A stretch of 64,000 nucleotides of DNA from Kosmotoga olearia TBF 19.5.1 (GTDB taxonomy: Bacteria; Thermotogota; Thermotogae; Petrotogales; Kosmotogaceae). The stretch spans positions 806,001-870,000 of the forward strand of contig NC_012785.1 in the NCBI RefSeq assembly GCF_000023325.1, given 5' to 3'. The position numbers and the translations under genes were made by a program. The notes under the pieces are model-generated. The model was not told the DNA's origin, did not search any database, and worked only from the letters and a program-made list of their open reading frames with translations. This document shows, one piece after another, positions 25,826 to 47,314 of this stretch. Numbering within the stretch: position 1 is the first letter of the stretch; each line of letters begins with the position of its first letter.

Positions 25826-25984
25826 GTTCTTCGAGTTTTTCCTCGAGCTGTTTTACCCTGGATTTCTTTACGTTTTCCAAGCCGTCTTTTCTTCCATCGA
25901 GGTTTTCTTTGCCTTTATCTGTACCCCCTTGCCTTTACTTTATCTCTCTACTTATATGTCCAATTCTTCAGGGGAGCAGTAAAT
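25826..25984 (-). mobile_element. IS3-family remnant, right end
   Basis: Degenerate orfA start (CGAGCTGTTTTACCCTGGAT, TTTGCC...CCCCTTGCC) and right inverted repeat (CAATTCTTCAGGGGAGCAGTA) of the IS3-family element, with internal deletions. No functional gene. Confidence 0.8.
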
Positions 25985-26021
25985 AGTTTTTGTTCCATAT
26001 TTGGGAGCCGAAGGAAATTCA

Positions 26022-26939
26022 TCAATCCTTTCTAACAAATAGCTTCAATATTTCAACAGAATCCTGTGGACAAAAAATGTGATTATCGGAGATGTTTTCT
26101 TTTCCATACACTGATCCATCGAAAGGTTTTTCGACACATTTTGAACATAGCTTGCATTCTTCTGTGGAAAGGCTCAAATCCCATTTTGTGGATTTAGAAA
26201 AAATATTGCTTTCCAGGGAACAATTGCCTTTTCCAGATAGTATTACTGCAACATGGTTGCGATAGAAAATATTCTTCGATAAATCTAGTTCTGAGACATC
26301 AATAAATTTTGCACCAATTACATTTTCAGAAAATTTGTTGTTCTGACTGTATAGCGTATCTACGTTGCTTACAAGAAGACCTGTTCCCATGTGTTTTACC
26401 AGGTTGTTGGTGAATTCTATGTTATTAGCTGCTGATACAAGCATTGCTGTTCCACGGTATGTGAAACCTCCTTGGATTTTTTCCCTAACACCATTGAATA
26501 CCGAGGTAGATATCGAAAGCGATCCACCAGAAAATAATATAGCGGTGCCGGAGGTCTCAAACTTACAATTTCTGAAGCTCACGTTGCTCATTATAATTTG
26601 AAAAAGCCTTCCATCCCCTCTGAATTTTATCCCCTCAAATTTTAGTTCATCAGAACCAATAACAACGATCATGGGGATTTCCGAATCAACTGGTTCAAAA
26701 TAAACTTTTCCTTTCTCACCAACTATCTCAAGGGATTTGTTTATGACAGCTTTTGTATTATAAACACCTGGCATGACTTTAATAATGTCACCATTTTGAG
26801 CGATATCAATAGCTTTTTGAAGTGAATTTATGTCACCTTCTGGATTGACTGTTATCGTTCTTCCCATCTCATCTGCAATCAAAAGTGTTGAAAGAACCAG
26901 TAAAACTGTGAAAAGCATTAATGATTTTCTTAATGACAT
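26022..26939 (-). CDS. Secreted parallel beta-helix (NosD-like) protein
   Basis: The product is about 305 aa with an N-terminal signal peptide (SLMLFTVLLVLSTLLIA). It then has a right-handed beta-helix: ITVNPEGDINSLQKAIDIAQNGDIIKV is the usual entry motif, followed by repeats such as NVSFRNCKF, NNIEFTNNLV and VDTLYSQNNKF. Near the end is a Cys cluster, ECKLCSKC, then another Cys (IFCPQ). Beta-helix proteins of this class bind or cut polysaccharide or serve as surface scaffolds; no catalytic residues can be assigned. It follows the secreted 16-Cys protein gene and is probably co-transcribed. A fragment of its last codons is found at about 16050-16105. Confidence 0.8.
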   Translation of the reverse strand: MSLRKSLMLFTVLLVLSTLLIADEMGRTITVNPEGDINSLQKAIDIAQNGDIIKVMPGVYNTKAVINKSLEIVGEKGKVYFEPVDSEIPMIVVIGSDELKFEGIKFRGDGRLFQIIMSNVSFRNCKFETSGTAILFSGGSLSISTSVFNGVREKIQGGFTYRGTAMLVSAANNIEFTNNLVKHMGTGLLVSNVDTLYSQNNKFSENVIGAKFIDVSELDLSKNIFYRNHVAVILSGKGNCSLESNIFSKSTKWDLSLSTEECKLCSKCVEKPFDGSVYGKENISDNHIFCPQDSVEILKLFVRKD

Positions 26940-26957
26940 ACCTGTCCCCCCCATAAT

Positions 26958-27350
26958 TCACATTAAAAAGCTTTGCTTCAAATTCAGGCCTACTTCACGG
27001 CGACAGCATGTCTCATAAGGAGTATCGAGAAGTGAATACCAACTACATGGATAAATCGTTACACATTCATATTCACCAACACAGGTTTCAGGATAGGTGC
27101 ACTGTGCGAGACAATACGCAGTACATGCTGCATAACAAACAGCATTTGTTCCACAAGTTGCACATCCTGCTACACATTGAGCGTAACAGGTCCAATCAGT
27201 GTATGCAGGTCGTACTTCCGTACACCAACATTCAGTGCGGGGTTCAGTTATACTGTCATCACATTCAACTCGAAGTGGTATTATACTTTCTACAGAAAAC
27301 AATACTGTTGAAACCATAATTAGAAGAACAAAAACCATCCTTTTTAACAT
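26958..27350 (-). CDS. Secreted 16-cysteine protein
   Basis: The ATG at 27350 follows AAAGGAGGGATTCGC. The 130-aa product has a signal peptide (VFVLLIMVSTVLFSV) and then 16 Cys in about 105 residues. The middle shows CX3C/CX2C runs (CYAQCVAGCATC and CYAACTAYCLAQC), a spacing that puts Cys on one face of helices. I know no named family with this layout. Position next to the peptide factory allows a toxin, an extracellular structural protein or a large modified substrate; none can be chosen from sequence alone. Confidence 0.75.
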   Translation of the reverse strand: MLKRMVFVLLIMVSTVLFSVESIIPLRVECDDSITEPRTECWCTEVRPAYTDWTCYAQCVAGCATCGTNAVCYAACTAYCLAQCTYPETCVGEYECVTIYPCSWYSLLDTPYETCCRREVGLNLKQSFLM

Positions 27351-27629
27351 GCGAATCCCTCCTTTTGTTTCTTTATTTCCTAAGTACATGTTCCTTCGAC
27401 CCCCAAATATGGGAAAAACTATTTGTTTTTAGGATATAAAAATCAAAAATCTTGCTATGTCAAGAAAGTGCTGTAAAAACATCCTTGTATCCCAAAAAAG
27501 ACTACAACTCTGTATTTAGACATCGCAATCTTGCTTTACCTCTAACACAACAAGAGATATAAAAATCCGGCTCATATATTTCCAACTATCGATCAGGTAA
27601 TAATACAGAAACTATCTGTGTGTCTTGAC
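27351..27629. other. Intergenic, partial promoter-repeat relic
   Basis: No gene seen. The stretch 27535-27629 is a diverged piece of the portable repeat (GAGATATAAAAAT...TCAGGTAATAATACAGAAACTATCTGTGTGTC). It lacks the promoter end of that repeat. Confidence 0.5.
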
Positions 27630-27902: not shown

Positions 27903-28031
27903 CTATCCATCAATTGTCTGAACAACAGGTGGTCTTGTGACCTCTGTCTGCTCATTGTAATCATCTTCTCCCGCAAAAATAAGCGTTACAAACATAAAAA
28001 TCACCAGCAGCATTATCATCACTTTTCTCAC
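27903..28031 (-). CDS. Small secreted peptide, candidate pheromone precursor
   Basis: GTG after AAGGGGTGAGATA opens a 42-codon frame: a short basic start (VRKV), a hydrophobic core (MIMLLVIFMFVTL), cleavage site LIFA, then GEDDYNEQTEVTRPPVVQTI and two more residues. It is divergent to the regulator gene beginning at 28225, with 193 bp between them. Signal-peptide design, size and position are the same as for 11513-11650 and 42106-42261, while the mature tails are unrelated. This suits receptor-specific signals. Confidence 0.7.
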   Translation of the reverse strand: MRKVMIMLLVIFMFVTLIFAGEDDYNEQTEVTRPPVVQTIDG

Positions 28032-28308: not shown

Positions 28309-29139
28309 TCAAGCAATTTTGTGTAGACTCATGGATTCTTCGAATATCTCTTTTGGGCTTTTGTATCCTAAAGCACTATGGGGATATTCTTCGTTATAAA
28401 ACTTTTCAAAAGCTTTCGTCTTTTCGATTAGCTCTTCGTAACTCGGATTGTCCAATACCCATGCAACTTCTTCTTTGTATGTTCTGAAATACCTTTCCGT
28501 GTTGGCATTACCTTTGGGATTGTTGTAGCTCGTGAATATCTGTTTTATCCCAAGTACAGTACATTCTTTCAGGAACTTCGTGCTCGTTGGTTGGCTGCCG
28601 TTGTCGCTCACCAGTATTACTCCTTCGCCCCGCACACCTTCGGGATATCCCTCATTTAAGGCTCTGTCCAACGCTTTTAACCATTCTTCTGCTCTACACC
28701 TGAGACTTATTTCCGATCCAAGGATTTCTCTTGTGTACCAATCTATCACTGCTATGTAATATGCCCAACCAGCATCTCTTGTGAATACTTTTGTCATGTC
28801 GATCCCAAGCACCTCTCTGGGCCTGGTGGGCTTTATTTTCTTTTGAATGGTTCTACAAGCTTTTTTGTGCTCAACTTTGAAGAGTAATCCATTTTCTTTC
28901 ATTATTCGGTATACCCTCTTTTGGTTGAGCTTATTGCCTTTTTTCCTCAACATCGCCCAGATTCGACGATATCCCCAGTAAGGATGCTCTCTTTTGAGTT
29001 CTTCTATTTCCTTGAGTATTTTTTCATCATCTGTTCTTCGACTGTATTCCCTAGGCTTGTAGTAATACGTGCTCCGGTTGATTTTCAAATACCTCAGCGC
29101 TTCTGAAACGCTGAATCCCTCATTAACAAGCAGTGCCAC
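28309..29139 (-). CDS. IS3-family transposase OrfB (integrase core)
   Basis: A 276-aa rve-type integrase nearly identical to the copy at 13652-14482, with the same DDE residues (GIDMTKVF, LVSDNGSQ, NTERYFRTYKEE). GTG start overlaps the orfA stop; an A8 slippery run upstream permits an OrfAB fusion. The frame is intact. Confidence 0.93.
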   Translation of the reverse strand: MALLVNEGFSVSEALRYLKINRSTYYYKPREYSRRTDDEKILKEIEELKREHPYWGYRRIWAMLRKKGNKLNQKRVYRIMKENGLLFKVEHKKACRTIQKKIKPTRPREVLGIDMTKVFTRDAGWAYYIAVIDWYTREILGSEISLRCRAEEWLKALDRALNEGYPEGVRGEGVILVSDNGSQPTSTKFLKECTVLGIKQIFTSYNNPKGNANTERYFRTYKEEVAWVLDNPSYEELIEKTKAFEKFYNEEYPHSALGYKSPKEIFEESMSLHKIA

Positions 29140-29429: not shown

Positions 29430-31096
29430 TATCTGCACCCCCTTGCCTTTATTTTATCTCTCTACTTTTTTCCTGTCCAATTCTTCAGGGGAGCAGTATA
29501 AATATTCAAAACCTTTTGTGGTAAATTTCCTCCAATTTTTCACTGGACCTGAATGCTTTTATCTAAAAGCAAGACTTTTGAGCTGGAGGAATGAATACGA
29601 TCGAGCACTTTATGAAATAGAAAAAGGGTTGAAAACCGCCGATTCAACGAGGGCCGAATATCTTCTGTACGCACTGAAGCTATCTTTATTAAGCAAAACT
29701 GGAGCAAAGCAAACAGATAAAATGATAGTCAAGCTAAAAAAGGGCTTGCACAGAATTCCACCTATTGCGCGTAAATTAATCATTAGCACTATTCTCAACC
29801 ATACAATTCGCAGTTGTGGGGTTGAAAAGATAAGGATATGGGGAAAGTTATACGAAAATGATCTTGCCACATGGTGTGCAGTACAAATTGCTTTTGCTAG
29901 GAAGCTTTATCGTACAGGAGATATAAACAAAAGCGTGAGATTATTGCTAAATGTGTACAAAACTGCCAGGAGATTGCCAAATCCCTCACAGATGATTTCA
30001 GCATTAAATAACGCAGCATGGTATTTGAAGAAAGATCATCCTTACTGGGCATTGAAAATGTCCCGGCAAAGTGTGTATTGGATGGGATGGTATAAAGAAT
30101 GGGAAGAAGCGTCTGCGAATATATTTGACACTTTGTTGGAACTGCAAATACTCTCTCATGATAATTTCGGAGCTTTCATTATAACAATGCTTATGTTGAA
30201 GATGAGAGACTTGAATGGAAGTTACATGAAAAAGATACAGATATGGAAAGACATAACTCTGGGCATTTCAATGTACAGGAACACGAGAAGGCTTCGGAGA
30301 TGGATAGGATCTATCGGAAATAGTATGTCGGACATTTCAAGAAAGACAGGGATAGACAGGAAAGTATTAACAAAAATAATAAGCGGGGAAGTAAGAAACA
30401 TAAAAGGAGAGACAATAAGAAAAATAATACGAGGATCGAGAAATTTTGATGTTTTCAAAACACCATATCCTATATACAACGAATTAGTGAAGATAGATAT
30501 TGAGAAACGGTTTGAAGAAGCGATAGAAAGTTTGAGACAACTACCGCTTTCAGAAAGACAGACTTTATTCATATCCACATACATGGCTCAGATTAAAAGG
30601 GATAAGTTTTATTTATCGAGGAAAGACAAGTTCAAAGAAGCATATGAGATGCTTGGTGAAATTGGAAAATTTGAGAGATATATGTTCAAAAGATACGAAA
30701 CTATGGAATTTATGATAGACATGATGAGAGCGCACCCGTACATAGAAGGAAGGAAGGCGGTAGTAAGAAAAGCAATAGATAGAATGAAAAAGAAGAAAAA
30801 GGAAGACTTTATTCATGGATATATAGAACTTGATGAGCATGATAGGAGACTACTGGACAGATTTTTTCGAAACTACGGCAGGTATGATGGCATAAGGTTC
30901 GGGGTGAGGATAGATGGACCTGAGAGAGTAAGATCATTTGCAAAGAGGTACAGATTGAAGATACAACCATGTTTTATTGCCTATTGGTGTGAAGAAGATG
31001 GAAGGATACGAAGAAAGCTGGAAAGGATTTTGGAAATCATATAATACCAACCGGAAATTTTCTTTTGTCAACATCGATCAGAAATGTGAGAAATCG

Positions 31097-31228
31097 TCCC
31101 GCAGAACTTTATCCCTTCACCCAGAAATACAGGCTAAAGAAAACCCAGACTGCCCTTGCTTACTGGGCGCTGGATAAGAAGAAGGAAAGGGAAAAGCTGA
31201 TTAATAGACTTTTGAGATTTATTTGAAA
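31097..31228 (+). pseudogene. C-terminal fragment of TPR/HTH regulator
   Basis: Reads PAELYPFTQKYRLKKTQTAL... to LLRFI and stop, identical in sense to the end of 42462-44114. It has no start and is the left edge of the 3288-bp duplicated block (31097-34384 = 43985-47272). Confidence 0.85.
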
Positions 31229-31231
31229 TCC

Positions 31232-32518
31232 TCAAACTGTTTCTGATGATTCAACAATTGAATTTTCGGTTTTTGGTTTGCTTTCAAGAAAGTCGAAAGT
31301 TTTTGTGAAGAGATAGACCAGTGTGATAAGAGTCGTTAAAATAAGTGAACCAAAAATAACTAAATGTACAGGATATTTATCTACAATTAATCCGTAAACA
31401 GCCATACCGATTGGCATGCTTATCTGTGCGATAAGGGAGATTGCCGATAGTACACGGGTCCTAAGTTCTGTTGGGGTTGCCAATTGGAAATATACTCCAA
31501 CAGGTGTATTGATGAAAGCATTGAAGAAGCCCATGGCAACGAAAAATCCTGCTATAAATATAAGGTATATCCAACTTGGTCCTCCAAAGAAGCTTATCAT
31601 CCGTGGAAAAGTAAGAGTGCCGAAAGTGTAGAAAAGAACTAATTGGAAAAACAAACCGGTTAAGAACAATCTTTTTATACTTTTGTTCTTAGCAATGATT
31701 ACAAGAAGTATGTTTCCCGCAGTAATACCGATGAGCCATGAAGCATTCAAAATTCCATATTGATAGCTATTGAATCCAACGATTTCCCTAGCAAAATATG
31801 GAATCACAAGCATTATCACTGGTCCCATAAGAAAGTTGGTAAGCATTATGAAAATCATTATTCGAAGTACTCCTGCTAGTTTTTTGAAAGCATTGACACC
31901 ATCTTTCAAGTCTTCCCAAATTTGTCTGACGGTTATTTTCTTTTTTACTGTTGTCTGTTCATAACTTATGAATATCTCGCTAATGCCGGATATAACGAAG
32001 GTCGTGGCATTTAATGCAAAAACGAGCCATATTCCAAGGGGATATAGAATGCCTCCAAGAATTGGACCAACAATGTAACTAAAGCTATCGGTTGCATTAA
32101 CTATTGAGTTTGCAGATGTAAGGTTATTTTCTGGGACTATATCTGGCAGTATAGCTCTTGTAACAGGATCGAAGAAGATATCCATAGTGGAAATAATCAG
32201 TTGAAAGCCATAAATAAGAATAATTCCCATGGATTCCTTAAAGGCAAGAAAAGCCATAAGAAAGATGATAATACCACGGAACAAATCGAGGTATACCATT
32301 AGCCATTTTCTGTTTAGTCTATCCCCGAACACCCCGGCTAAAGGAGCAAAGACAATTCGTGGTAGCATATTTATAAGCAAGAAAGTACCCATAGCAGCGC
32401 CAGAACCTGTGATATCCAATATGTAAAGCGACAGAGCAAGAGATTGTATACCACTCCCAAGAAGTGATACTAACCTTCCAAAATAATAAAGCCTAAAGTT
32501 CGTTTGCAAGCTAGACAT
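31232..32518 (-). CDS. MFS transporter
   Basis: A 428-aa, twelve-helix major facilitator protein of the MFS_3/enterobactin-exporter-like type. The loop motif GVFGDRLNRKWLMVYLDL between helices 2 and 3 is the family signature, and a long central loop holds KKKITVRQIWEDLKDG. Such transporters export small molecules, siderophores or antibiotics. It is divergent to a TPR/HTH regulator gene at 289 bp, taking the place that small secreted peptides have at the other regulator loci. Two residues differ from the copy at 44120-45406. Confidence 0.9.
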   Translation of the reverse strand: MSSLQTNFRLYYFGRLVSLLGSGIQSLALSLYILDITGSGAAMGTFLLINMLPRIVFAPLAGVFGDRLNRKWLMVYLDLFRGIIIFLMAFLAFKESMGIILIYGFQLIISTMDIFFDPVTRAILPDIVPENNLTSANSIVNATDSFSYIVGPILGGILYPLGIWLVFALNATTFVISGISEIFISYEQTTVKKKITVRQIWEDLKDGVNAFKKLAGVLRIMIFIMLTNFLMGPVIMLVIPYFAREIVGFNSYQYGILNASWLIGITAGNILLVIIAKNKSIKRLFLTGLFFQLVLFYTFGTLTFPRMISFFGGPSWIYLIFIAGFFVAMGFFNAFINTPVGVYFQLATPTELRTRVLSAISLIAQISMPIGMAVYGLIVDKYPVHLVIFGSLILTTLITLVYLFTKTFDFLESKPKTENSIVESSETV

Positions 32519-32641
32519 TTTTTGTCACCCCCGGAATTTTTGCTTATTTCTTTTGGTTAAAATCTAGAAATTCATTTAACCAATTTTCAAAAGAGTTTTT
32601 CTTGGTCTCTGGAAAATGTTTTTCGGGTTTAGTCAGTTAAA

Positions 32642-32687
32642 ATATTACTTGTGCATATATGATTTTCAAGTCTTTAGTATTTCGTAA
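32642..32687 (-). promoter_or_regulatory. Promoter of MFS gene with TNCAGAA-like site
   Basis: Reading leftwards: TTACGAA (32681-32687), 11 bp, TTGAAA (32664-32669), 16 bp, TAATAT (32642-32647), about 120 bp ahead of the MFS start. The CATAT just after the -35 is shared with the peptide and ABC promoters. The upstream site is one base off TACAGAA and single. Confidence 0.55.
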
Positions 32688-32694
32688 GTCTTAT

Positions 32695-32724
32695 TTGAAG
32701 CGGAGTACAAATAGACATTATAAT
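32695..32724 (+). promoter_or_regulatory. Probable promoter of TPR/HTH regulator
   Basis: TTGAAG, 18 bp and TATAAT on the plus strand, about 85 bp ahead of the proposed AUA start. A second option, TTGATT-16-TAGAAT, lies at 32740-32767. Both are in the duplicated block, so they recur at +12888. Confidence 0.45.
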
Positions 32725-32806
32725 AAACAATTATCCTTTTTGATTTTTTGATACTTAACACTAGAATAGAAAATGGAAGTGATGATATTTATAGGGAGGG
32801 AATCGT

Positions 32807-34411
32807 ATAAACCGTAAAGTTCCTGAATTACTCAACCATGCCTTTGGTGTTTTTTACTCGAGACCAATGATAAATATGCTAATAGATAACAAACCTTCCA
32901 GTGAATGGAAGCATTATTCCAGAGCCATTAAGTACTACTGTGAAGGAGACTTCAGCAAAGCAAAGTCTCAGATTGAAAGAGGCTTGAAGAGTAATATGAA
33001 AAACCGTAGTCTCTTTTATCTACTACTTTCTCTCAAACTACTCGTATCAACCGGACAGAACGATAAGCTTTACAACAGGCTTAGAAGAGAATTCGGCAGA
33101 ATACCGGTAAGAGTGAGACCAGAAGTCGTCTGGGCCTTAATCAACTATCACAGTATCTATCATACCGAAAGAGAACTCAAAGCCTTCAGAGTGTGGAGCG
33201 AAAGATACGAGCAGGAGAACACTGCAACGATAATGCTCTTCCTTGGAAAAGCAAGAAAAGAGGCTCTTGACAACAATAAAGAAAATGCGTTAAAACTCTT
33301 CGAAAAGACTTATGAACTGGCGAAAAAACTCGAAGATCCGCAGGGACTTATAAACGTCCTCAACGATTTTTCCTGGTACTTGAAGTTAGATACGAAAGAA
33401 CGTGCCTTGAAATTAGCAGAAAAGGCCTCCTACTATTCTGGCTACTACGATGAAGACCTAGCTGCCGCTCCTTATGTGCTCGATACCCTCGCAACTATCC
33501 AATTTGAAAATCACGTTATTTCATTATATAAAACCGCTGAAATACAGCGGTTTGTCGGCTTCAGAAATAGTAGTACCTCAACCATATTGAAAAAGAAAAG
33601 CCCAGTTTTCAATCCTAGAAGATCAAAATACGCAAACAATGAACTCATAAGGGATTACTTGAAGAATCGCATGAACAACCTTTTAGCTGTTAGTAGGAAC
33701 ACTGGAATTGCCTGGGATAACCTCAGCAAACTCATTAACGGCAAAACCCAAACCGTCAGGGGTAAAACTTTAAGGAAGATAATCACAGGATTGGGAATCG
33801 AGGTTGATCCACTCAACGATCCTTATCCGATCGTGAACGAATGGATAAAACTTCAGATAGATAAAGGCTTTGAAAATGCGATAACAGAACTGGAAAAACT
33901 CAAACCATCCGAACGTGAAATATTAATCCTCTCAACATACACCGCTCTTTTGAACAAAAGGAAAGATTATCCTTATCTAAGCAGGAAGGGAACGCTTTCC
34001 CGTGCACTGGAACTTTGTAAAGAAGACCTTCGAAGGTTTAGAGAATTTACGGAAAATCGTTATGAAATGAAGAAATTCGTGGCTCAACTCTTCGAGCTTC
34101 ATCCGTTTCTTGAAGGCAGGAGAGACCTTATTTGGAAATTCCTGAAGGCCTTACCTGCGAGAAAAAGAAAAGAGTTCATCCATAAGTATCTTCAACTCGG
34201 AGATGAAGACAGAGGGGTAATAGATACCTTCATGAGAAACTACGTTCGCTACGACAGGAACTGGGGCCTGAGACTCAAACCTCCCGCAGAACTTTATCCC
34301 TTCACCCAGAAATACAGGCTAAAGAAAACCCAGACCGCCCTCGCTTACTGGGCGCTGGATAAGAAGAAGGAAAGGAAAAAGCTGGCTAATAGACTGTTGA
34401 AGTTTGTTTGA
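32807..34411 (+). CDS. TPR/HTH transcription regulator, apparent AUA start
   Basis: The first ATG is at 32867, but the frame upstream to an ATA at 32807 reads INRKVPELLNHAFGVFYSRP, which aligns with the N-termini of the paralogues. GGGAGGG sits six bases before the ATA, and no ATG, GTG or TTG is available there. The 534-aa product has TPR-like helices in residues 40-250 (FSKAKSQIERGLKS, NALKLFEKTYELAKKLEDP), an HTH near 280-330 (LLAVSRNTGIAWDNLSKLINGKTQTV) and a C-terminal helical domain shared by all copies. It resembles RRNPP peptide receptors in parts, but with TPR before HTH. It is divergent to an MFS gene. Confidence 0.8.
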   Translation: MNRKVPELLNHAFGVFYSRPMINMLIDNKPSSEWKHYSRAIKYYCEGDFSKAKSQIERGLKSNMKNRSLFYLLLSLKLLVSTGQNDKLYNRLRREFGRIPVRVRPEVVWALINYHSIYHTERELKAFRVWSERYEQENTATIMLFLGKARKEALDNNKENALKLFEKTYELAKKLEDPQGLINVLNDFSWYLKLDTKERALKLAEKASYYSGYYDEDLAAAPYVLDTLATIQFENHVISLYKTAEIQRFVGFRNSSTSTILKKKSPVFNPRRSKYANNELIRDYLKNRMNNLLAVSRNTGIAWDNLSKLINGKTQTVRGKTLRKIITGLGIEVDPLNDPYPIVNEWIKLQIDKGFENAITELEKLKPSEREILILSTYTALLNKRKDYPYLSRKGTLSRALELCKEDLRRFREFTENRYEMKKFVAQLFELHPFLEGRRDLIWKFLKALPARKRKEFIHKYLQLGDEDRGVIDTFMRNYVRYDRNWGLRLKPPAELYPFTQKYRLKKTQTALAYWALDKKKERKKLANRLLKFV

Positions 34412-35833: not shown

Positions 35834-36081
35834 TTTTTATCACCATTGTAGGATCCCCACCATGCTAAATTTTGGCTTAATTGAGCTCTTTTCTCTTCGA
35901 CAAGATTCCAGAATACATCTTTATCTACCTTGAGCCAGGGGTTGTAATACTCTTCAACGATTTTGGAAACGAGAAAATCTAAATCCTCCCTCAACTGTTC
36001 GGGAGTAAAAAGCTTTTCGGCTATTGTGAAAGTGGAAATGAGTAAAAGGATTCCTATGAGTATATAGCGAGTTTTATTCAC
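35830..36081 (-). pseudogene. S41 peptidase, 5' fragment
   Basis: GTG start, complete signal peptide (YILIGILLLISTFTIA) and the first 45 mature residues (LFTPEQLREDLDFLVSKIVEEYYNP in the family) up to EKRAQL, then an unrelated 14-residue tail and a stop overlapping the MFS start. No catalytic part is left. It may still supply promoter and ribosome site for the MFS gene, or even an exported 60-aa fragment. Confidence 0.8.
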
Positions 36082-36183
36082 CACTATCTCCCTGGATTCC
36101 TGATACGTTATCCTTTTCCAGTTTCCAGTACAGCAAGTGCCTTATTTCATCGCTAAAACTTGCGTTTTTCATTGGAAGAGTTT

Positions 36184-38098: not shown

Positions 38099-38596
38099 TC
38101 AACTTCCCTGATTGGTTATTGCGACTTTGTTTATTCGTTTTATCGATAGCCATGTTAATAACGCAAGCCACATTGCTCCGTACATCAATGCCTTTTTAGG
38201 ATCATCAAGCCAGAACATATCAACAAGAACTTTCAAAAATTTGCTGTCTTTAAAATTGAGCATCAAAAAGAATGTGAGTTTCATGGCTATGAATATAATC
38301 CCTGCTGACATAATGCTGCCAATCATCAGTTTCCCAGGTAGAAAAGTCGTTATCAGCACAGCCAGCGCAACGTATACCATCGTTTTCAAGATATTGGAAC
38401 TTACTTCTTCAAGCGCTTTTGTTATTTCTGGATTTTGACCCGCTGTTTCTATTCCTTTCAGTGTGAAATCTCCGGTTACCATTCCTGAACCTATCGAAAT
38501 GAGCGCAAAGGCTATAAAAAATTGCAAAACAATGAAAAGATAGAAAGTCAGCAATCTTTTCCACATCCACTTTGTTCGACTTTTCCCACACAGCAA
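38099..38596 (-). CDS. ABC-2 permease, C-terminal portion (frameshifted), copy 2
   Basis: 165 aa, differing from 24236-24733 only near the last residues (ITNQGS versus ITNHGS). It begins in the -1 frame relative to the upstream part. It is followed by no further permease gene here, unlike copy 1. Confidence 0.7.
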   Translation of the reverse strand: MLCGKSRTKWMWKRLLTFYLFIVLQFFIAFALISIGSGMVTGDFTLKGIETAGQNPEITKALEEVSSNILKTMVYVALAVLITTFLPGKLMIGSIMSAGIIFIAMKLTFFLMLNFKDSKFLKVLVDMFWLDDPKKALMYGAMWLALLTWLSIKRINKVAITNQGS

Positions 38597-38826
38597 ATGC
38601 GTAAGAATGTACCTTCCACATACTCCACATTGAAAGCAAGATCTGCCAACATCAGTGATAATATTGGTATCAATAATTCCTGTGTATTGGATATAAAATG
38701 CAGACCTATGGCCATACCTCCAAACATTTTTCCGTTTGATTTAAAAATTAACGCGCTTAAAATACCAATAATCAGGTATATCGCCTGTATAACTATCCAG
38801 TGTCTATGCTTGAATAAAATTCTCAT
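38548..38826 (-). CDS. ABC-2 permease, N-terminal portion (frameshifted), copy 2
   Basis: 92 aa, identical to 24685-24963 including the shifted tail after EYVEGTFLRI. Identity of the lesion in both copies dates it before the duplication or gene conversion. Confidence 0.7.
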   Translation of the reverse strand: MRILFKHRHWIVIQAIYLIIGILSALIFKSNGKMFGGMAIGLHFISNTQELLIPILSLMLADLAFNVEYVEGTFLRICCVGKVEQSGCGKDC

Positions 38827-39452
38827 ATTGTCACCTCTTTTTCTATTACTCTATCTATGAGGCCTTGATACATATCTGGATTTGTACCGGCAATTATGCA
38901 GGTTTTACCGTTTTCTTTATAATCACGAAGTAAATTTACTAAAGTTTCATGGCGCTTTTTATCAAGTGCGAGTTCTGGCTCATCCCATATCAGAAGTTCA
39001 GGATCATTTATCAGCGAGAGTGTTAATTTAGCTATCTTCCTCATGCCATGGGAGGATTTCTTGTATTTTCTGTTGAAATCTATGTTCCACATTCTTACAT
39101 ATTTTTTCAGTGCTTCTTCTGCCATTTCGGGTGTTACACCTTTTTGTCTGGCGAAGAGTAATATATTTTCTCTCAAGCTAAGTTCTCTGTATAATCCCAT
39201 ACCATCAATCACTATTCCCAACCTTTTTAAAATTTCAGGGTTACGATGTGGTTCTTTTCCAAAAACGCTAACATTCCCAGTTGTTGGAGGTATTAATCCA
39301 CAAAGGATTTTTAAGAGCGTACTCTTCCCGGAACCGTTTAGACCTTTTATATAAACAAATTCACCCTTTTTCACGCTCAACGAGAAGTTGTCGAATATTT
39401 TCGGCCCATTGGCAAAAGAAAACGATACATTCTCCATAGACGCAACCGTCAT
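38823..39452 (-). CDS. ABC transporter ATP-binding protein, copy 2
   Basis: 209 aa, identical to 24960-25589: Walker A GLNGSGKSTLL, altered signature SSHGM, Walker B LLIWDEPELALD. It starts within the end of the portable promoter repeat (ribosome site CGGAGGTGAGAAG). The coding part matches copy 1 almost perfectly, while the flanking repeat is more diverged. Confidence 0.87.
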   Translation of the reverse strand: MTVASMENVSFSFANGPKIFDNFSLSVKKGEFVYIKGLNGSGKSTLLKILCGLIPPTTGNVSVFGKEPHRNPEILKRLGIVIDGMGLYRELSLRENILLFARQKGVTPEMAEEALKKYVRMWNIDFNRKYKKSSHGMRKIAKLTLSLINDPELLIWDEPELALDKKRHETLVNLLRDYKENGKTCIIAGTNPDMYQGLIDRVIEKEVTI

Positions 39453-39453
39453 C

Positions 39454-39688
39454 TTCTCACCTCCGAAGTCGTTTCAAGACTAGTATATATTTTTCTATAT
39501 GATTTTCAAATTTCTTGCCTTCTGAAATGCAGGTGGAATGAGGGGCTCAGAAGGGCTTTTTTCTTGTGTTTTCGATGTTTTGAAAAAATCCACCTCTAAC
39601 GCATCAGGAGATATAAAAAATTTGTCTAAATATTTCAAACTGTTGATCAGGTAATAATCCGGAAATAATCTGTGAGCGTTGACTGTTG
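39454..39688 (-). repeat. Portable promoter repeat, copy 3
   Basis: Same layout as copy 2: TTCAGAA at 39520-39526, TTGAAA at 39504-39509, TATACT at 39482-39487, facing the ATPase gene. Flanked on the right by an IS3 right-end remnant. Confidence 0.75.
39482..39526 (-). promoter_or_regulatory. Promoter of second ABC cassette
   Basis: TTCAGAA, 10 bp, TTGAAA, 16 bp, TATACT, the same as at 25619-25663. Confidence 0.68.
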
Positions 39689-39689
39689 A

Positions 39690-39847
39690 GTTCTTCAACT
39701 TTTTCCTCGAGCTGTTTTACCCTGGATTTCTTTACGTTTTCCAAGCCGTCTTTTCTTCCATCGAGGTTTTCTTTGCCATTATCTGTACCCCCTTGCCTTT
39801 ACTTTATCTCTCTACTTATATGTCAAATTCTTCAGGGGAGCAGTATA
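39690..39847 (-). mobile_element. IS3-family remnant, right end
   Basis: Degenerate orfA 5' part (CGAGCTGTTTTACCCTGGAT; TTTGCCATTATCTG) and right inverted repeat ending GGGGAGCAGTATA, with the same internal deletion as 25826-25984. The two remnants therefore share one ancestor rather than being independent decay products. Confidence 0.8.
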
Positions 39848-39903
39848 TTGTGGTATACATAGGTGCCTTTATTATCTATTTCGAAGACCAAGACATCATT
39901 CAT
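39832..39903 (-). pseudogene. Start of unknown gene cut by IS3 remnant
   Basis: AAGGAGGTAGAAAAAC and an ATG open MNDVLVFEIDNKGTYVYHN, then the frame enters the IS3 right end and stops after 23 codons. It lies just downstream of the exporter gene 39924-41585, where a maturase or peptidase gene would be expected. The fragment is too short to name. Confidence 0.6.
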
Positions 39904-39923: not shown

Positions 39924-41585
39924 TTACCTTAAAAGATTAATCTTTGTCAAATGCACGATTTTATTACAAGCGTCATCGAAGTAGTCAGAATGATCGATTA
40001 TTACGCATATCTTGTCGTTCAACTCTTCTTTTATAAATTTTTTGATCAGTTCTCTTGTATCTGTATCTAAATGAGCCGTTGCTTCGTCGAATATGAAAAC
40101 ATCAGAATCGGATTTCACAATAGCGCGAGCTATCGCCAGTTTCTGTATCTGACCACCAGAGAGTTTCACTCCATTTTCTCCCACCAAGGTTTGATCCTTT
40201 AAAGGTAAGCTCTCTACGAAATCTTTCAAACCTGATTTGATCAAGGCCATTTCGTACTTTTCATCGTCGACATTGTCTACTATCTTTATGTTGTTCTCGA
40301 TGGTATCGTTGAACAAGAAAATCCTCTGTGACACTATCGACACTCGGCTCCTCAGGGATTTCTTCGATATCTTCATTAACTTCACGCCGTTTATCAGAAT
40401 TTCTCCTTCGTAATTTTCGTAAAATCCCAGAAGTAATCTTATTACCGTTGACTTTCCACTTCCGTTCGGCCCTTTCAAGAGCACTTTATCTCCAGTTTCT
40501 GCCTTCAAATTGAAACTTCTCAAAACGTATTCCTTCCCATCGGGGTATCGGAAATTCACGTTTCTCATCTCTATTTCGTTTATCTTATCTATCTTGATCT
40601 TGTCAGTCCCTTCATCTTCTTCGGGATATCTCAAGAAGAAATCTCTGATCCTTTCTAAAGCCACAAAGGCAGGTTTGAAGGTGTACATGCTTAAACTCCA
40701 GTTGACCACAGGAGCGTAGAGTTTTCCAAAGTATCCAGCAAAAGCCATGTAAGTCCCGACAGATATACTCTCTTGAAGAATGGATCTCCCTCCCAAATAA
40801 AGCAGGAGAACACCTGCAAGAGAAGAAAGAAGTATGATCGCTTCAGAGCCGAAAGATAGCAAAATACCGTATTTTATGGCTGATTTCACGTACTCTTTGT
40901 TCACTTCGTTTATCTTCTGTGCTTCTTTCTCTTCTAAGGACATTCTTTTTATCTCCTCTGCACCGCTTATGGACTGTTGTATTTTTCCATGGAAGATGGC
41001 CCCTTTCTCCATGGTTTCATCGGTGACTCTAGCGAAGGCCGATTCGAAAGTTCTGGTCACTACATAGAAAACGGGTATTACAAGGATCAATAACAGAGTC
41101 AGTTGTACGTTCATAGACAACATGATCACTAAAGCTCCTATGAATTCGAAAACGCTGAGAATCAGCTTGAAACTCTGCAAAGAAAACAATGGACTCAAGG
41201 AATCGATTTCTTTGAACCTCGAAACGATGTATCCACTTTCGCTATTGGAGAAGAACTCGAGTGGTAGTTTCAAAATGCGGTTCGTTAAGTCTTTTTGCAT
41301 GTCAAAGAGTGTGCTCTGGCTTACAAATGTAAAAAGCGCCGAACTTAAGTAGTTGAAAAGACTCTTCAACACGTACGCCCCAACGAGCAGCAAGACGTAT
41401 TTGATTAATAGATTCAGGTTTCTGCTCATTATTCCTTCATCGAAAGCAAGTTTGGTGAGGTAAGGTGGTAAAAGTGAGACCAAAGATAACGCAACCAAAA
41501 AAGCAAAAGCCAGTATGAACAGTTTCATCTTGGACTTTACGTATTTAAAGACAAAACGCAGTAGTACTAATTCTTTTGCCTTCAT
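39924..41585 (-). CDS. ABC exporter, fused membrane and ATPase domains
   Basis: A 553-aa type I half-exporter: membrane helices in residues 20-310, Walker A GPNGSGKSTVI, signature LSGGQIQKLAIARA, Walker B VFIFDEATAHLD. No C39 peptidase domain. ATG is preceded by AAAGGAGC. It lies downstream of portable promoter copy 4 across an IS3 left-end remnant, and its downstream partner gene has been lost to another IS3 remnant. A third exporter of the island, distinct in sequence from 4789 and 7792. Confidence 0.88.
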   Translation of the reverse strand: MKAKELVLLRFVFKYVKSKMKLFILAFAFLVALSLVSLLPPYLTKLAFDEGIMSRNLNLLIKYVLLLVGAYVLKSLFNYLSSALFTFVSQSTLFDMQKDLTNRILKLPLEFFSNSESGYIVSRFKEIDSLSPLFSLQSFKLILSVFEFIGALVIMLSMNVQLTLLLILVIPVFYVVTRTFESAFARVTDETMEKGAIFHGKIQQSISGAEEIKRMSLEEKEAQKINEVNKEYVKSAIKYGILLSFGSEAIILLSSLAGVLLLYLGGRSILQESISVGTYMAFAGYFGKLYAPVVNWSLSMYTFKPAFVALERIRDFFLRYPEEDEGTDKIKIDKINEIEMRNVNFRYPDGKEYVLRSFNLKAETGDKVLLKGPNGSGKSTVIRLLLGFYENYEGEILINGVKLMKISKKSLRSRVSIVSQRIFLFNDTIENNIKIVDNVDDEKYEMALIKSGLKDFVESLPLKDQTLVGENGVKLSGGQIQKLAIARAIVKSDSDVFIFDEATAHLDTDTRELIKKFIKEELNDKICVIIDHSDYFDDACNKIVHLTKINLLR

Positions 41586-41757: not shown

Positions 41758-41985
41758 ACCTCCGAAGTCGTTCAAAACTAGTATATATTTTTCTATATGA
41801 TTTTCAAATTTCTTGCCTTCTGAAACGCAGGTGAGCTAGGGGTTTCAGAAGAACTTTTTTCTTGCGTTTTCGATGTTTTGAAAAAATCCACCTCTAACGC
41901 ATCAGGAGATATAAAAAATTTGTCCAAATATTTCCAACTGTCGATCAGGTAATAATCCAGAAACTATCTGTGTGTCTTGATTGCT
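41758..41985 (-). repeat. Portable promoter repeat, copy 4
   Basis: TTCAGAA at 41818-41824, TTGAAA at 41802-41807, TATACT at 41780-41785, facing the exporter gene 39924-41585 across the IS3 remnant. It joins directly to the piece seen at 38040-38098, showing the arrangement without the ABC cassette. Confidence 0.75.
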
Positions 41986-42105: not shown

Positions 42106-42261
42106 TTAACTCTGAATCATTCTGTAAATTTCATTCACGCTTTCGTTGACTGTAGATGGTGGGGTTCCATCTGTGTATTTCTTTCTATCACCTGGACTAG
42201 CAAAAATAATTGCAGAAAAAAGGAATAGGACAATAGACAATATGGCAATTTTCTTGAACAC
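42106..42261 (-). CDS. Small secreted peptide, candidate pheromone precursor
   Basis: GTG after AGGGAGATGATATT opens a 51-codon frame: VFKKIAILS, hydrophobic IVLFLFSAI, cleavage site IIFA, then SPGDRKKYTDGTPPSTVNES and ten more residues. A longer upstream frame lacks a ribosome site. It is divergent to the intact regulator 42462-44114 with 200 bp between. Same design as 11513-11650 and 27903-28031. Confidence 0.7.
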   Translation of the reverse strand: MFKKIAILSIVLFLFSAIIFASPGDRKKYTDGTPPSTVNESVNEIYRMIQS

Positions 42262-42293: not shown

Positions 42294-42349
42294 ATTTTAT
42301 CAACCACCATATGATTTTCAAGTTTGCTGGGTTCTGTAAGCATTTCTGG
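42294..42349 (-). promoter_or_regulatory. Promoter with two upstream direct repeats
   Basis: Reading leftwards: CCAGAA-type site (42344-42349) and TACAGAA (42332-42338), 10 bp, TTGAAA (42316-42321), 16 bp, TAAAAT (42294-42299). It faces the small secreted peptide gene. Confidence 0.65.
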
Positions 42350-42461: not shown

Positions 42462-44114
42462 TTGATTAGCAAGAAATTCCCTGAATTTGTTGCGACTTTC
42501 TTGGAGTACGGTGGTTACGGAAAACCTTTTTTAAATTATTACTTCAATCATTCGAAGGACTCGGATTGGCTGGATTATTTTTTGATACTCAAATTGGTTT
42601 GGAAGCGAGAATATCCGAAAGCTCTGAGAGAGATTGACAGGGTATTAAAAAGAGTCAGGAAGAACAAAACGCTGACGTATTTTCTCCTTGCAGAGAAACT
42701 TGCATTGTTATCCAGGTTGGATACTGAACAAGCAATTTCACTGTATAAGCAGTTGAAATATGGGTTCTCAAAGATACCAAAAACAGCAAGGAATGTTGTT
42801 GCAACTGTGATGATAGGTGTTCATGCAGAACTGCAAAGTAATGAAGATATGCATGAATTCAGAACATGGAGCAAGCAATACCTCGAGCACAATCCCACAA
42901 GAGTATTTCTCGAACTTGGAATGGCAAGAAGAAAAGCAATTTCCGGAAATCTAGATATGGCGAAGGAATTATTTTTGGATGCTTTTGAAATCGCCAGAAG
43001 CATACCACATCCGGGGGGGATGAGTGATTCTTTAAACGATGCTGCGTGGTATTTAAGAGAGTATGATTCGGAATTTTCACTAAAACTGGCACAGAAATGC
43101 CTGTACATAGACGGTCAGTACTATGAAAAATTCAACGGAGTAATAAATGAGTTTGACACATACCACGAGGTTTTGAAGCTTACAAAGGTTGAATGTCTTT
43201 GTGAAAACGCAATGATTTTATATTCAATATTCGAACTGATTCAGGAAACAGCGAAGGGTTATCTATACAAACGATATGAGGGGATGTTAAAGGAGTGCTT
43301 GAAATTCATAACTGACCTTGAAGTTTCCTCTTACCGATCGGAATTGGCATTAATTGAATATCTAAGAAGCAGGATATCTAATATAACAGCTGCTTCTAAT
43401 AAAACAGGAATCGCCAGGCACAGACTCAGAGGGTTACTTAACGGCAAAACCCAAACCGTCAGGGGCGAGACTTTAAGGAAGATAATCACAGGATTGAAAA
43501 TCGAGGTTGATCCACTCAACGATCCTTATCCGATCGTGAACGAATGGATAAAACTTCAGATAGATAAAGGCTTTGAAAATGCGATAACAGAACTGGAAAA
43601 ACTCAAACCATCCGAACGTGAAATATTAATCCTCTCAACATACACCGCTCTTTTGAACAGAAGGAAAGATTATCCTTATCTAAGCAGGAAGGGAACGCTT
43701 TCCCGTGCACTGGAACTTTGTAAAGAAGACCTTCGAAGGTTTAGAGAATTTACGGAAAATCGTTATGAAATGAAGAAATTCGTGGCTCAACTCTTCGAGC
43801 TTCATCCGTTTCTTGAAGGCAGGAGAGACCTTATTTGGAAATTCCTGAAGACCTTACCTGCGAGAAAAAGAAAAGAATTCATCCATAAGTATCTTCAACT
43901 CGGAGATAAAGACAGAAGGGTAATAGATACCTTCATGAGAAACTACGTTCGCTACGACAGGAACTGGGGGCTGAGACCCAAACCTCCCGCAGAACTTTAT
44001 CCCTTCACCCAGAAATACAGGCTAAAGAAAACCCAGACTGCCCTCGCTTACTGGGCGCTGGATAAAAAGAAGGAAAGGAAAAAGCTGATTAATAGACTTT
44101 TGAGATTTATTTGA
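42462..44114 (+). CDS. TPR/HTH transcription regulator
   Basis: A 550-aa protein starting at TTG (MISKKFPEFVATFLEYGGYG). TPR-like helices fill residues 40-280 (YPKALREIDRVLKRV, DMAKELFLDAFEIARSIPHP). The HTH is near 295-345 (ISNITAASNKTGIARHRLRGLLNGKTQTV), and the shared C-terminal domain runs to the end (PAELYPFTQKYRLKK). From LLNGKTQTV onward the DNA is almost identical to 33740-34411, whereas the TPR half is quite different; the gene is a mosaic. It is the only intact regulator paired with a small secreted peptide in the window. DNA binding is inferred from the HTH, peptide sensing from the TPR part and the neighbour. Confidence 0.82.
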   Translation: MISKKFPEFVATFLEYGGYGKPFLNYYFNHSKDSDWLDYFLILKLVWKREYPKALREIDRVLKRVRKNKTLTYFLLAEKLALLSRLDTEQAISLYKQLKYGFSKIPKTARNVVATVMIGVHAELQSNEDMHEFRTWSKQYLEHNPTRVFLELGMARRKAISGNLDMAKELFLDAFEIARSIPHPGGMSDSLNDAAWYLREYDSEFSLKLAQKCLYIDGQYYEKFNGVINEFDTYHEVLKLTKVECLCENAMILYSIFELIQETAKGYLYKRYEGMLKECLKFITDLEVSSYRSELALIEYLRSRISNITAASNKTGIARHRLRGLLNGKTQTVRGETLRKIITGLKIEVDPLNDPYPIVNEWIKLQIDKGFENAITELEKLKPSEREILILSTYTALLNRRKDYPYLSRKGTLSRALELCKEDLRRFREFTENRYEMKKFVAQLFELHPFLEGRRDLIWKFLKTLPARKRKEFIHKYLQLGDKDRRVIDTFMRNYVRYDRNWGLRPKPPAELYPFTQKYRLKKTQTALAYWALDKKKERKKLINRLLRFI

Positions 44115-44119
44115 AATCC

Positions 44120-45406
44120 TCAAACTGTTTCTGATGATTCAACAATTGAATTTTCGGTTTTTGGTTTGCTTTCAAGAAAGTCGAAAGTTTTTGTGAAGAG
44201 ATAGACCAGTGTGATAAGAGTCGTTAAAATAAGTGAACCAAAAATAACTAAATGTACAGGATATTTATCTACAATTAATCCGTAAACAGCCATACCGATT
44301 GGCATGCTTATCTGTGCGATAAGGGAGATTGCCGATAGTACACGGGTCCTAAGTTCTGTTGGGGTTGCCAATTGGAAATATACTCCAACAGGTGTATTGA
44401 TGAAAGCATTGAAGAAGCCCATGGCAACGAAAAATCCTGCTATAAATATAAGGTATATCCAACTTGGTCCTCCAAAGAAGCTTATCATCCGTGGAAAAGT
44501 AAGAGTGTCGAAAGTGTAGAAAAGAACTAATTGGAAAAACAAACCGGTTAAGAACAATCTTTTTATACTTTTGTTCTTAGCAATGATTACAAGAAGTATG
44601 TTTCCCGCAGTAATACCGATAAGCCATGAAGCATTCAAAATTCCATATTGATAGCTATTGAATCCAACGATTTCCCTAGCAAAATATGGAATCACAAGCA
44701 TTATCACTGGTCCCATAAGAAAGTTGGTAAGCATTATGAAAATCATTATTCGAAGTACTCCTGCTAGTTTTTTGAAAGCATTGACACCATCTTTCAAGTC
44801 TTCCCAAATTTGTCTGACGGTTATTTTCTTTTTTACTGTTGTCTGTTCATAACTTATGAATATCTCGCTAATGCCGGATATAACGAAGGTCGTGGCATTT
44901 AATACAAAAACGAGCCATATTCCAAGGGGATATAGAATGCCTCCAAGAATTGGACCAACAATGTAACTAAAGCTATCGGTTGCATTAACTATTGAGTTTG
45001 CAGATGTAAGGTTATTTTCTGGGACTATATCTGGCAGTATAGCTCTTGTAACAGGATCGAAGAAGATATCCATAGTGGAAATAATCAGTTGAAAGCCATA
45101 AATAAGAATAATTCCCATGGATTCCTTAAAGGCAAGAAAAGCCATAAGAAAGATGATAATACCACGGAACAAATCGAGGTATACCATTAGCCATTTTCTG
45201 TTTAGTCTATCCCCGAACACCCCGGCTAAAGGAGCAAAGACAATTCGTGGTAGCATATTTATAAGCAAGAAAGTACCCATAGCAGCGCCAGAACCTGTGA
45301 TATCCAATATGTAAAGCGACAGAGCAAGAGATTGTATACCACTCCCAAGAAGTGATACTAACCTTCCAAAATAATAAAGCCTAAAGTTCGTTTGCAAGCT
45401 AGACAT
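44120..45406 (-). CDS. MFS transporter (duplicate)
   Basis: 428 aa, the copy of 31232-32518 with two visible substitutions (LVFVLNATT for LVFALNATT; TFDTLTF for TFGTLTF). The helix 2-3 motif GVFGDRLNRKW is intact. Divergent to the regulator gene at 45695, with the same intergenic region as copy 1. Confidence 0.9.
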   Translation of the reverse strand: MSSLQTNFRLYYFGRLVSLLGSGIQSLALSLYILDITGSGAAMGTFLLINMLPRIVFAPLAGVFGDRLNRKWLMVYLDLFRGIIIFLMAFLAFKESMGIILIYGFQLIISTMDIFFDPVTRAILPDIVPENNLTSANSIVNATDSFSYIVGPILGGILYPLGIWLVFVLNATTFVISGISEIFISYEQTTVKKKITVRQIWEDLKDGVNAFKKLAGVLRIMIFIMLTNFLMGPVIMLVIPYFAREIVGFNSYQYGILNASWLIGITAGNILLVIIAKNKSIKRLFLTGLFFQLVLFYTFDTLTFPRMISFFGGPSWIYLIFIAGFFVAMGFFNAFINTPVGVYFQLATPTELRTRVLSAISLIAQISMPIGMAVYGLIVDKYPVHLVIFGSLILTTLITLVYLFTKTFDFLESKPKTENSIVESSETV

Positions 45407-45529
45407 TTTTTGTCACCCCCGGAATTTTTGTTTATTTCTTTTGGTTAAAATCTAGAAATTCATTTAACCAATTTTCAAAAGAGTTTTTCTTGGTCTCTGG
45501 AAAATGTTTTTCGGGTTTAGTCAGTTAAA

Positions 45530-45575
45530 ATATTACTTGTGCATATATGATTTTCAAGTCTTTAGTATTTCGTAA
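45530..45575 (-). promoter_or_regulatory. Promoter of duplicate MFS gene
   Basis: Same elements as 32642-32687: TTACGAA, 11 bp, TTGAAA, 16 bp, TAATAT. Confidence 0.5.
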
Positions 45576-45694
45576 GTCTTATTTGAAGCGGAGTACAAAT
45601 AGACATTATAATAAACAATTATCCTTTTTGATTTTTTGATACTTAACACTAGAATAGAAAATGGAAGTGATGATATTTATAGGGAGGGAATCGT

Positions 45695-47314
45695 ATAAAC
45701 CGTAAAGTTCCTGAATTACTCAACCATGCCTTTGGTGTTTTTTACTCGAGACCAATGATAAATATGCTAATAGATAACAAACCTTCCAGTGAATGGAAGC
45801 ATTATTCCAGAGCCATTAAGTACTACTGTGAAGGAGACTTCAGCAAAGCAAAGTCTCAGATTGAAAGAGGCTTGAAGAGTAATATGAAAAACCGTAGTCT
45901 CTTTTATCTACTACTTTCTCTCAAACTACTCGTATCAACCGGACAGAACGATAAGCTTTACAACAGGCTTAGAAGAGAATTCGGCAGAATACCGGTAAGA
46001 GTGAGACCAGAAGTCGTCTGGGCCTTAATCAACTATCACAGTATCTATCATACCGAAAGAGAACTCAAAGCCTTCAGAGTGTGGAGCGAAAGATACGAGC
46101 AGGAGAACACTGCAACGATAATGCTCTTCCTTGGAAAAGCAAGAAAAGAGGCTCTTGACAACAATAAAGAAAATGCGTTAAAACTCTTCGAAAAGACTTA
46201 TGAACTGGCGAAAAAACTCGAAGATCCGCAGGGACTTATAAACGTCCTCAACGATTTTTCCTGGTACTTGAAGTTAGATACGAAAGAACGTGCCTTGAAA
46301 TTAGCAGAAAAGGCCTCCTACTATTCTGGCTACTACGATGAAGACCTAGCTGCCGCTCCTTATGTGCTCGATACCCTCGCAACTATCCAATTTGAAAATC
46401 ACGTTATTTCATTATATAAAACCGCTGAAATACAGCGGTTTGTCGGCTTCAGAAATAGTAGTACCTCAACCATATTGAAAAAGAAAAGCCCAGTTTTCAA
46501 TCCTAGAAGATCAAAATACGCAAACAATGAACTCATAAGGGATTACTTGAAGAATCGCATGAACAACCTTTTAGCTGTTAGTAGGAACACTGGAATTGCC
46601 TGGGATAACCTCAGCAAACTCATTAACGGCAAAACCCAAACCGTCAGGGGTGAAACTTTAAGGAAGATAATCACAGGATTGAAAATCGAGGTTGATCCAC
46701 TCAACGATCCTTATCCGATCGTGAACGAATGGATAAAACTTCAGATAGATAAAGGCTTTGAAAATGCGATAACAGAACTGGAAAAACTCAAACCATCCGA
46801 ACGTGAAATATTAATCCTCTCAACATACACCGCTCTTTTGAACAGAAGGAAAGATTATCCTTACCTGAGCAGAAAAGGAACGCTTTCCCGCGCACTGGAA
46901 CTTTGTAAAGAAGACCTTCGAAGGTTTAGAGAATTTACGGAAAATCGTTATGAAACAAAGAAATTCGTTGCTCAACTCTTTGAGCTTCATCCGTTTCTTG
47001 AAGGCAGGAGAGACCTTGTTTGGAAATTCCTGAAGGCCTTACCTGCGAGAAAAAGAAAAGAGTTCATCCATAAGTATCTTGAACTCGGAGATAAAGACAG
47101 AGGGGTAATAGATACCTTCATGAGAAACTACGTTCGCTACGACAGGAACTGGGGCCTGAGACTCAAACCTCCTGCAGAACTTTATCCCTTCACCCAGAAA
47201 TACAGGCTAAAGAAAACCCAGACCGCCCTCGCTTACTGGGCGCTGGATAAAAAGAAGGAAAGGGAAAAGCTGAGAACGCTGCTTTGCAGCGGATGCGAAT
47301 CCCTTCGGGATTGA
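45695..47314 (+). CDS. TPR/HTH regulator (duplicate), altered C-terminus, AUA start
   Basis: The copy of 32807-34411, with the same apparent ATA start (ATG only at 45755). It carries TPR-like repeats, HTH and C-terminal domain as there. The HTH region reads GETLRKIITGLKIEV, as in 42462-44114, rather than GKTLRKIITGLGIEV. The last eight residues of the family are replaced by about twelve residues (RTLLCSGCESLRD) encoded by a 21-bp hairpin array that starts at 47273. The protein is otherwise intact and may still work. Confidence 0.78.
   Translation: MNRKVPELLNHAFGVFYSRPMINMLIDNKPSSEWKHYSRAIKYYCEGDFSKAKSQIERGLKSNMKNRSLFYLLLSLKLLVSTGQNDKLYNRLRREFGRIPVRVRPEVVWALINYHSIYHTERELKAFRVWSERYEQENTATIMLFLGKARKEALDNNKENALKLFEKTYELAKKLEDPQGLINVLNDFSWYLKLDTKERALKLAEKASYYSGYYDEDLAAAPYVLDTLATIQFENHVISLYKTAEIQRFVGFRNSSTSTILKKKSPVFNPRRSKYANNELIRDYLKNRMNNLLAVSRNTGIAWDNLSKLINGKTQTVRGETLRKIITGLKIEVDPLNDPYPIVNEWIKLQIDKGFENAITELEKLKPSEREILILSTYTALLNRRKDYPYLSRKGTLSRALELCKEDLRRFREFTENRYETKKFVAQLFELHPFLEGRRDLVWKFLKALPARKRKEFIHKYLELGDKDRGVIDTFMRNYVRYDRNWGLRLKPPAELYPFTQKYRLKKTQTALAYWALDKKKEREKLRTLLCSGCESLRD

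Follow-up and report, generated by a model that had tools for sequence, protein, structure and literature searches.

The window analyzed here is a 64,000-base stretch of the Kosmotoga olearia TBF 19.5.1 genome (C1:806001-870000 of a single contig of 2,302,126 bases), and positions are those of the window unless prefixed by C1. The open reading frame at 42462-44114 on the plus strand, R3, begins with TTG and encodes a regulator of 550 residues with weak matches to the Pfam models TPR_12 and HTH_26. In the AF2 model of R3 (pLDDT 91, pTM 0.90), a helical solenoid extends to residue ~280 and is followed by the HTH helices 295-304, 308-315, and 319-326, a strand at 332-334, a helix at 335-344, and a helical domain up to the end of the protein. 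The HTH_26 score of R3 was 16.7 bits (cut-off 22), compared to 24.7 and 25.5 for its paralogues R2 and R4, and TPR_12 reached 1e-9 in other family members. Full-length members have about 476-629 residues, most of them more than 500.

The Foldseek search with the whole of R3 gave only TPR proteins, including Rap, RapI, RapF, and NprR, with a best E of 9e-3 and none below 0.001. A search of solved structures yielded no real relative for the protein as a whole, the match to a proteasome subunit (E 0.004) being confined to the TPR part. The C-terminal domain modelled alone (pLDDT 94.5) had no significant PDB match by Foldseek or by sequence, no NCBIfam family covers R3, and the plasmid and phage collections gave no match. 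The members L073-L076 and L078-L080 consist of the TPR part and the C-domain with no recognizable HTH, and most of them still have a peptide gene and the promoter element described below.

R3 is divided at position 43438 with respect to its paralogue R2 (32807-34411, plus strand). In the blastn comparison, 43438-44114 (positions 977-1653 of the gene) was aligned with 33735-34411 at 97.0% identity over 677 nt without gaps, whereas no R3/R2 alignment was obtained upstream of 43438. According to the codon alignment, the 5' part (42462-43437, residues 1-326) is 45.1% identical in DNA and 30.7% in protein, and the 3' part is 96.9% and 95.1% identical, respectively. The likelihood change-point was located at residue 326 of R3 (support 326-327, dLL 285; Fisher p 2e-124 for the break). 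The first-pass annotation had placed the break at 43438, with DNA unlike R2 upstream and nearly identical DNA down to the stop; this coordinate is exact, and identity on its two sides is indeed dissimilar.

In Cro/C1-type HTH domains, the third helix is the recognition helix, which corresponds to residues 319-326 of R3. These residues are RHRLRGLL in R3 and WDNLSKLI in R2 and R4. Judging from the model, the recognition helix of R3 is the gene's own, and the shared cassette (43438-44114, plus strand) begins at N327, so that it comprises the NGKTQTV loop and strand, the last HTH helix, and the helical C-domain of ~205 residues. The gene had been described as a mosaic of its own sensing half and a borrowed DNA-binding half that includes part of the recognition helix region. 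The mosaic itself stands, with a private N-half that contains the TPR solenoid and a common C-half, but the recognition helix is not borrowed, because the predicted structure puts the break just after this helix and not within it.

The contrast between the two parts could also arise if the C-half were merely more constrained and evolved slowly with no recombination. The protein identity is somewhat higher in the C-half even among distant members, being 39% against 26% in the N-half for R1 and R3. However, the four-fold sites of R3 and R2 are identical at 14 of 31 positions in the 5' part and at 75 of 79 in the 3' part, which excludes protein constraint as the cause of the R3/R2 contrast; furthermore, orthologues have diverged more in the C-half than in the N-half. 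An explanation by slow evolution is thus scarcely credible.

The cassette is common to four paralogues, R2 to R5, and a second kind of C-half is shared by R1 (29443-31044, plus strand) and R6 (C1:1132460-1134031), in which a 97% stretch is nested over the final ~60 codons. Two of the cassette copies had not been noted in the first-pass annotation. One is in R4 (45695 or 45755 to 47314, plus strand), where it is 96.8% identical to that of R3; R4 has an N-half identical to that of R2, and its final codons are replaced. The other is in R5 (C1:1126118-1127725), at a locus 0.28 Mb away. The R5 cassette is 93-95% identical to the others (93% to R3), and it starts at the same place in comparison with R3 and 33 bases earlier in comparison with R2 and R4. 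A further paralogue, R7, lies at C1:1830412-1832043 on the minus strand. The fragment R8f (11807-12304, plus strand), whose DNA is 93% identical to the N-half of R6, is cut after 165 residues and adjoins an IS256 transposase gene (12354-13568). In R2 and R4 (32807 and 45695), the family alignment begins at an ATA codon located six bases behind GGAGGG, and the first ATG, at 32867 in R2, is 60 bases downstream; either ATA is the start codon, or both copies have in common a lost start.

Traces of exchange are also present around these genes. A block of 3.3 kb is duplicated: 31097-34384, consisting of a cassette tail, an MFS gene, and R2, matches 43985-47272, consisting of the R3 tail, an MFS gene, and R4, at 99.2%. 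The cassette tail of the former copy is an orphan of 130 bp behind R1 (31097-31226, plus strand), 97.7% identical to the R3 tail, and its first 49 bp are also found behind R6. The identical 49-base tail of the R3 type behind the stops of both R1 and R6 suggests a recombination scar, left by a past replacement of their C-halves.

A single domain swap, with the C-half passed once between R3 and R2 in either direction and no wider meaning, would give the sharp break at one base and the identity of 97%. It would not account for the presence of this cassette in R5, far away in the genome, for the comparable break in R1 and R6, which have a different C-half ending in a 97% tail, or for the pattern in twelve genomes with other breakpoints. 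A single event is therefore very improbable, and the earlier proposal of one swap into R3 gives way to repeated homogenization of the 3' half among paralogues.

The relatives were searched in the phylum Thermotogota. A strong change-point was detected in 66 of 104 within-genome pairs, and in 62 of these 66, from 13 genomes, the higher identity was on the 3' side. An N-half identity of at most 70% together with a C-half identity of at least 85% was observed in 42 pairs, which came from 12 genomes. The breakpoints vary by lineage and are located at about residues 300, 326, 386-388, and 448-457, which indicates that the process recurs. In G090, one of two Thermotoga-sized genomes (G090 and G091), the paralogues are 47% identical in the N-half and 97% in the C-half, where all 59 of 59 four-fold sites are identical; another comparison over a converted tract gave 56 of 57.

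Between species, orthologues usually agreed better in the 5' half than in the 3' half, with N- and C-half identities of 97.4% and 93.9%, 100% and 93%, and 99.7% and 92.3%. The first pair is R3 and its orthologue in G019, for which the N-half shows 25 differences in 976 positions. Per 674 positions of the C-half, R3 differs from its paralogue R2 at 20 and from this orthologue at 41. One orthologue pair, G048/G047, shows no dip in the C-half (N 98.1%, C 100%), as is expected if conversion is sporadic. In the trees, the N-halves cluster by type across species and the C-halves more by genome or genus, the genome label changing 54 times on the N tree and 44 times on the C tree for 80 rows. Paralogues of the same genome are closer than orthologues inside the tract and not outside it, and the identity extends to synonymous sites in addition to the protein; both are features of gene conversion. 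These patterns fit recurrent ectopic gene conversion that targets the 3' part, and they do not fit slow protein evolution. Concerted evolution by gene conversion is known for bacterial paralogues such as tuf and the rRNA operons, and the present family is similar in that paralogues within one genome resemble each other more than orthologues do. It differs in that conversion affects only one of the two gene halves, breaks off close to domain boundaries, and has recurred in numerous lineages within a single regulator family. A reverse mosaic was also observed: L078 and L079 in G038 have N-halves that are 100% identical and C-halves that are 78% identical.

On the minus strand in front of R3, a small gene (42106-42261) starts with GTG at a distance of 201 bp from the R3 start and encodes a peptide of 51 residues, (V/M)FKKIAILSIVLFLFSAIIFASPGDRKKYTDGTPPSTVNESVNEIYRMIQS. 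It has a Shine-Dalgarno sequence, and the peptide begins with basic residues, continues with a hydrophobic core, and ends in a short polar tail; the gene is conserved at the orthologous locus of G019. Similar genes are present on the minus strand at 27903-28031 for R1 and at 11513-11650 in front of R8f. R2 and R4 have no peptide gene, which counts against the peptide-responsive explanation given below. An IS3-type transposase gene (28309-29139), a copy of which is located at 13652-14482, intervenes between the R1 peptide gene and R1. In the divergent precursor of R7 (L012 10199-10453), DYDPPDGEVVDGV occurs twice, an arrangement reminiscent of multi-copy pheromone precursors.

Among the family, a divergent signal-peptide-like reading frame, called by a rule of basic start and hydrophobic core together with a Shine-Dalgarno sequence rather than by SignalP, starts within 450 bases in 53 of the 72 upstream regions, or in 51 of 69 when three loci that were counted twice are taken once. 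The opposite strand gave 1 of 72, and shuffled sequences gave 14 of 1440. With the C-half controlled for, the distance between peptides tracks the distance between N-halves (partial r 0.31; none of 1000 permutations); with the N-half controlled for, it does not track the C-half (partial r -0.005). In G090, the segment 1.333-1.352 Mb, which we take, by position, to be the TM1316 region, contains three members of the family, and each of them faces a divergent gene for a small signal-peptide-like product. The TM1316 peptide locus of Thermotoga maritima was reportedly treated by Frock et al. in 2013, a study cited in PMC13157175.

The linkage of peptide and N-half raises another explanation, in which the mobile unit is the sensor, that is, the peptide gene, the operator, and the N-half, which lands on a resident C-half by homologous recombination. 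That the peptide goes with the N-half is in line with it, as is the identity between species, which is 99-100% for the N-halves and upstream DNA and 89-93% for the C-halves. In G090 and G091, however, the identity is ~100% over 1.5 kb of upstream DNA, the N-half (100% over 1146 nt), and most of the downstream DNA, and it decreases, to about 91-93% in the C-half, only from residue ~386 to shortly past the stop. Since the 3' flank is also ~100% identical, the whole locus is shared there and only the C-half was rewritten. We consider a mobile sensor possible but doubtful as the general explanation, although both processes may occur. The first-pass annotation had a new sensor placed on a constant output domain; in these Thermotoga-sized genomes, the peptide and N-half are constant between species and the C-half diverges.

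The promoters of the peptide genes share throughout the phylum the element TTGAAAAYCATATR, followed after ~9 bases by TATAAT. In the promoter of the R3 peptide gene, the element is TTGAAAATCATATG (42308-42321, minus strand), which is a candidate operator. The form TTGAAAATCATATA is located at 32656-32669 on the minus strand before the MFS gene 31232-32518, which faces R2. The same element is found, again on the minus strand, at 45544-45557 before the MFS gene 44120-45406, which faces R4, at 41794-41807 before the ABC exporter 39924-41585, at 25633-25646 before the ABC genes 24236-25589, and at 39496-39509 before the duplicate ABC genes 38099-39452. All six exact matches to TTGAAAAYCATATR in the genome fall inside the window, on its minus strand; they represent three sequence contexts, mostly in duplicated DNA, and are not independent. 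A search that tolerated one mismatch gave 23 matches in this genome against 2 for the reversed control pattern. In each of G090, G091, and G092, three exact matches are located at family loci. In G048 and G036, the one-mismatch counts are hardly above the control, and only exact or well-placed matches are therefore informative there. The only perfect inverted repeat of at least 7 bases in the R3 intergenic region, AATTTTC-N8-GAAAATT, was not taken as the operator because it is absent from the paralogues.

Comparison of the operator motifs among paralogues, as had been proposed, showed that the promoter elements are nearly alike, in agreement with a constant output. R2, R3, and R5 have differing recognition helices and nearly the same element, which counters the idea that different recognition helices mean different operators. 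In addition, members that lack the HTH in G042 and G038 keep the element, and for this reason it may be read by the C-half or by another protein. Both observations favor an explanation close to the first-pass annotation, in which the C-half and not the HTH reads the operator and homogenization keeps one DNA specificity. On the other hand, the C-half contains no known DNA-binding fold, and the variation of the element tracks the N-half with the C-half constant and not the C-half with the N-half constant, although physical linkage alone predicts the link to the N-half. Reading of the operator by the C-half is accordingly regarded as unlikely.

The explanation that we consider probable as a whole is that R3 and its relatives are RRNPP-like, peptide-responsive regulators with private sensors and a common back half, homogenized by conversion of the 3' part. 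Each member would consist of a TPR superhelix, a Cro/C1-type HTH, and the helical domain of ~205 residues, and would normally face a divergent small secreted-peptide gene. The sequences show that the 3' part, which in R3 comprises everything after the recognition helix, is overwritten repeatedly by ectopic conversion among paralogues of the same genome, while the peptide gene, the promoter element, and the 5' part remain linked and different. The N-half would sense its own processed peptide. As the element spans a good -35 and spacer, the regulators are taken to be repressors relieved by peptide binding; R3 would probably act across the -35 and spacer of sigma-70-like promoters and control the peptide gene and the nearby MFS and ABC exporters. 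The shared C-half could serve as a dimer partner, as a contact with RNA polymerase, or as a second contact with DNA, and its uniformity may reflect the fact that the promoter element on which the paralogues would act is almost the same for all of them.

Intracellular peptide-receptor signalling has been described for Firmicutes and their phages. In the RRNPP systems, a propeptide of 10-100 residues, encoded next to the receptor gene, is exported by Sec (as called with SignalP), and the receptor of 250-500 residues has an N-terminal HTH or three-helix bundle followed by a TPR superhelix, where peptide binding in the TPR pocket alters the receptor activity (PMC10075063, PMC9765709). The string 'Thermotog-' does not occur in PMC10075063 or PMC9765709. 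The present loci resemble RRNPP(A) systems (Rap, Rgg, NprR, PlcR, PrgX, AimR) in that a small signal-peptide-like reading frame stands beside a TPR and HTH receptor and that peptide and sensor co-vary. The predicted solenoid of R3, together with the weak TPR_12 match, agrees with a TPR-superhelix receptor, and its peptide gene adjoins the receptor gene, although upstream in a divergent arrangement. In contrast to RRNPP receptors, the domain order in R3 is reversed, with the HTH (295-344) after the TPR part and then a further domain without a PDB relative; most receptors exceed the size range, as R3 itself does; and the family occurs in Thermotogota rather than Firmicutes. The R3 system would work like RRNPP, but it is not filed as one because its size and domain order depart from the definition.

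We tentatively suggest, with somewhat more doubt than belief, that Thermotogota possess a peptide-signalling family of their own with a layout unlike RRNPP. It would consist of a secreted peptide, a near-constant promoter element, and a TPR-HTH receptor whose peptide-specific half is freely exchangeable, while conversion keeps the other half uniform so that new sensors plug into a common output. If this is true, a family that spans a phylum of thermophiles and has a domain order and a promoter element of its own would widen the map of peptide receptors, and current RRNPP detectors would miss it owing to the lengths above 500 residues and the weak TPR scores. Half-gene conversion would then represent a natural experiment, in which one back-half domain is placed under dozens of sensors and the breakpoints mark the sites at which the protein tolerates cutting and rejoining. 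If all paralogues act on the same sites, several peptide signals would merge into one exporter response, which would explain the alike C-halves.

The island around the regulators contains other genes of note. Three radical SAM/SPASM peptide-maturase-like genes (9504-10901, 16228-17565, and 17703-19028) resemble PapB, nif11, and ranthipeptide types below the curated cut-offs, and on this basis the island seems also to make modified peptides. Four paralogous genes (3353-4666, 6439-7653, 19025-20308, and 20733-22037) and two pieces (22422-22664 and 35846-36091) are 77-97% alike, and the two of the four that were scanned resemble S41/C-terminal processing proteases. A Cys-rich secreted protein of 143 residues (26958-27389), for which no Pfam hit was obtained, and a NosD-like protein (26022-26954) are encoded behind the gene for the R1 peptide; the larger part of this region shows 95% identity to the DNA upstream of R3 in G019 and 94% identity to that upstream of R5. 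Finally, a duplication of 1.75 kb (24236-25987 and 38099-39851, 98.7%) contains an ABC ATPase, a membrane protein, and the promoter element.
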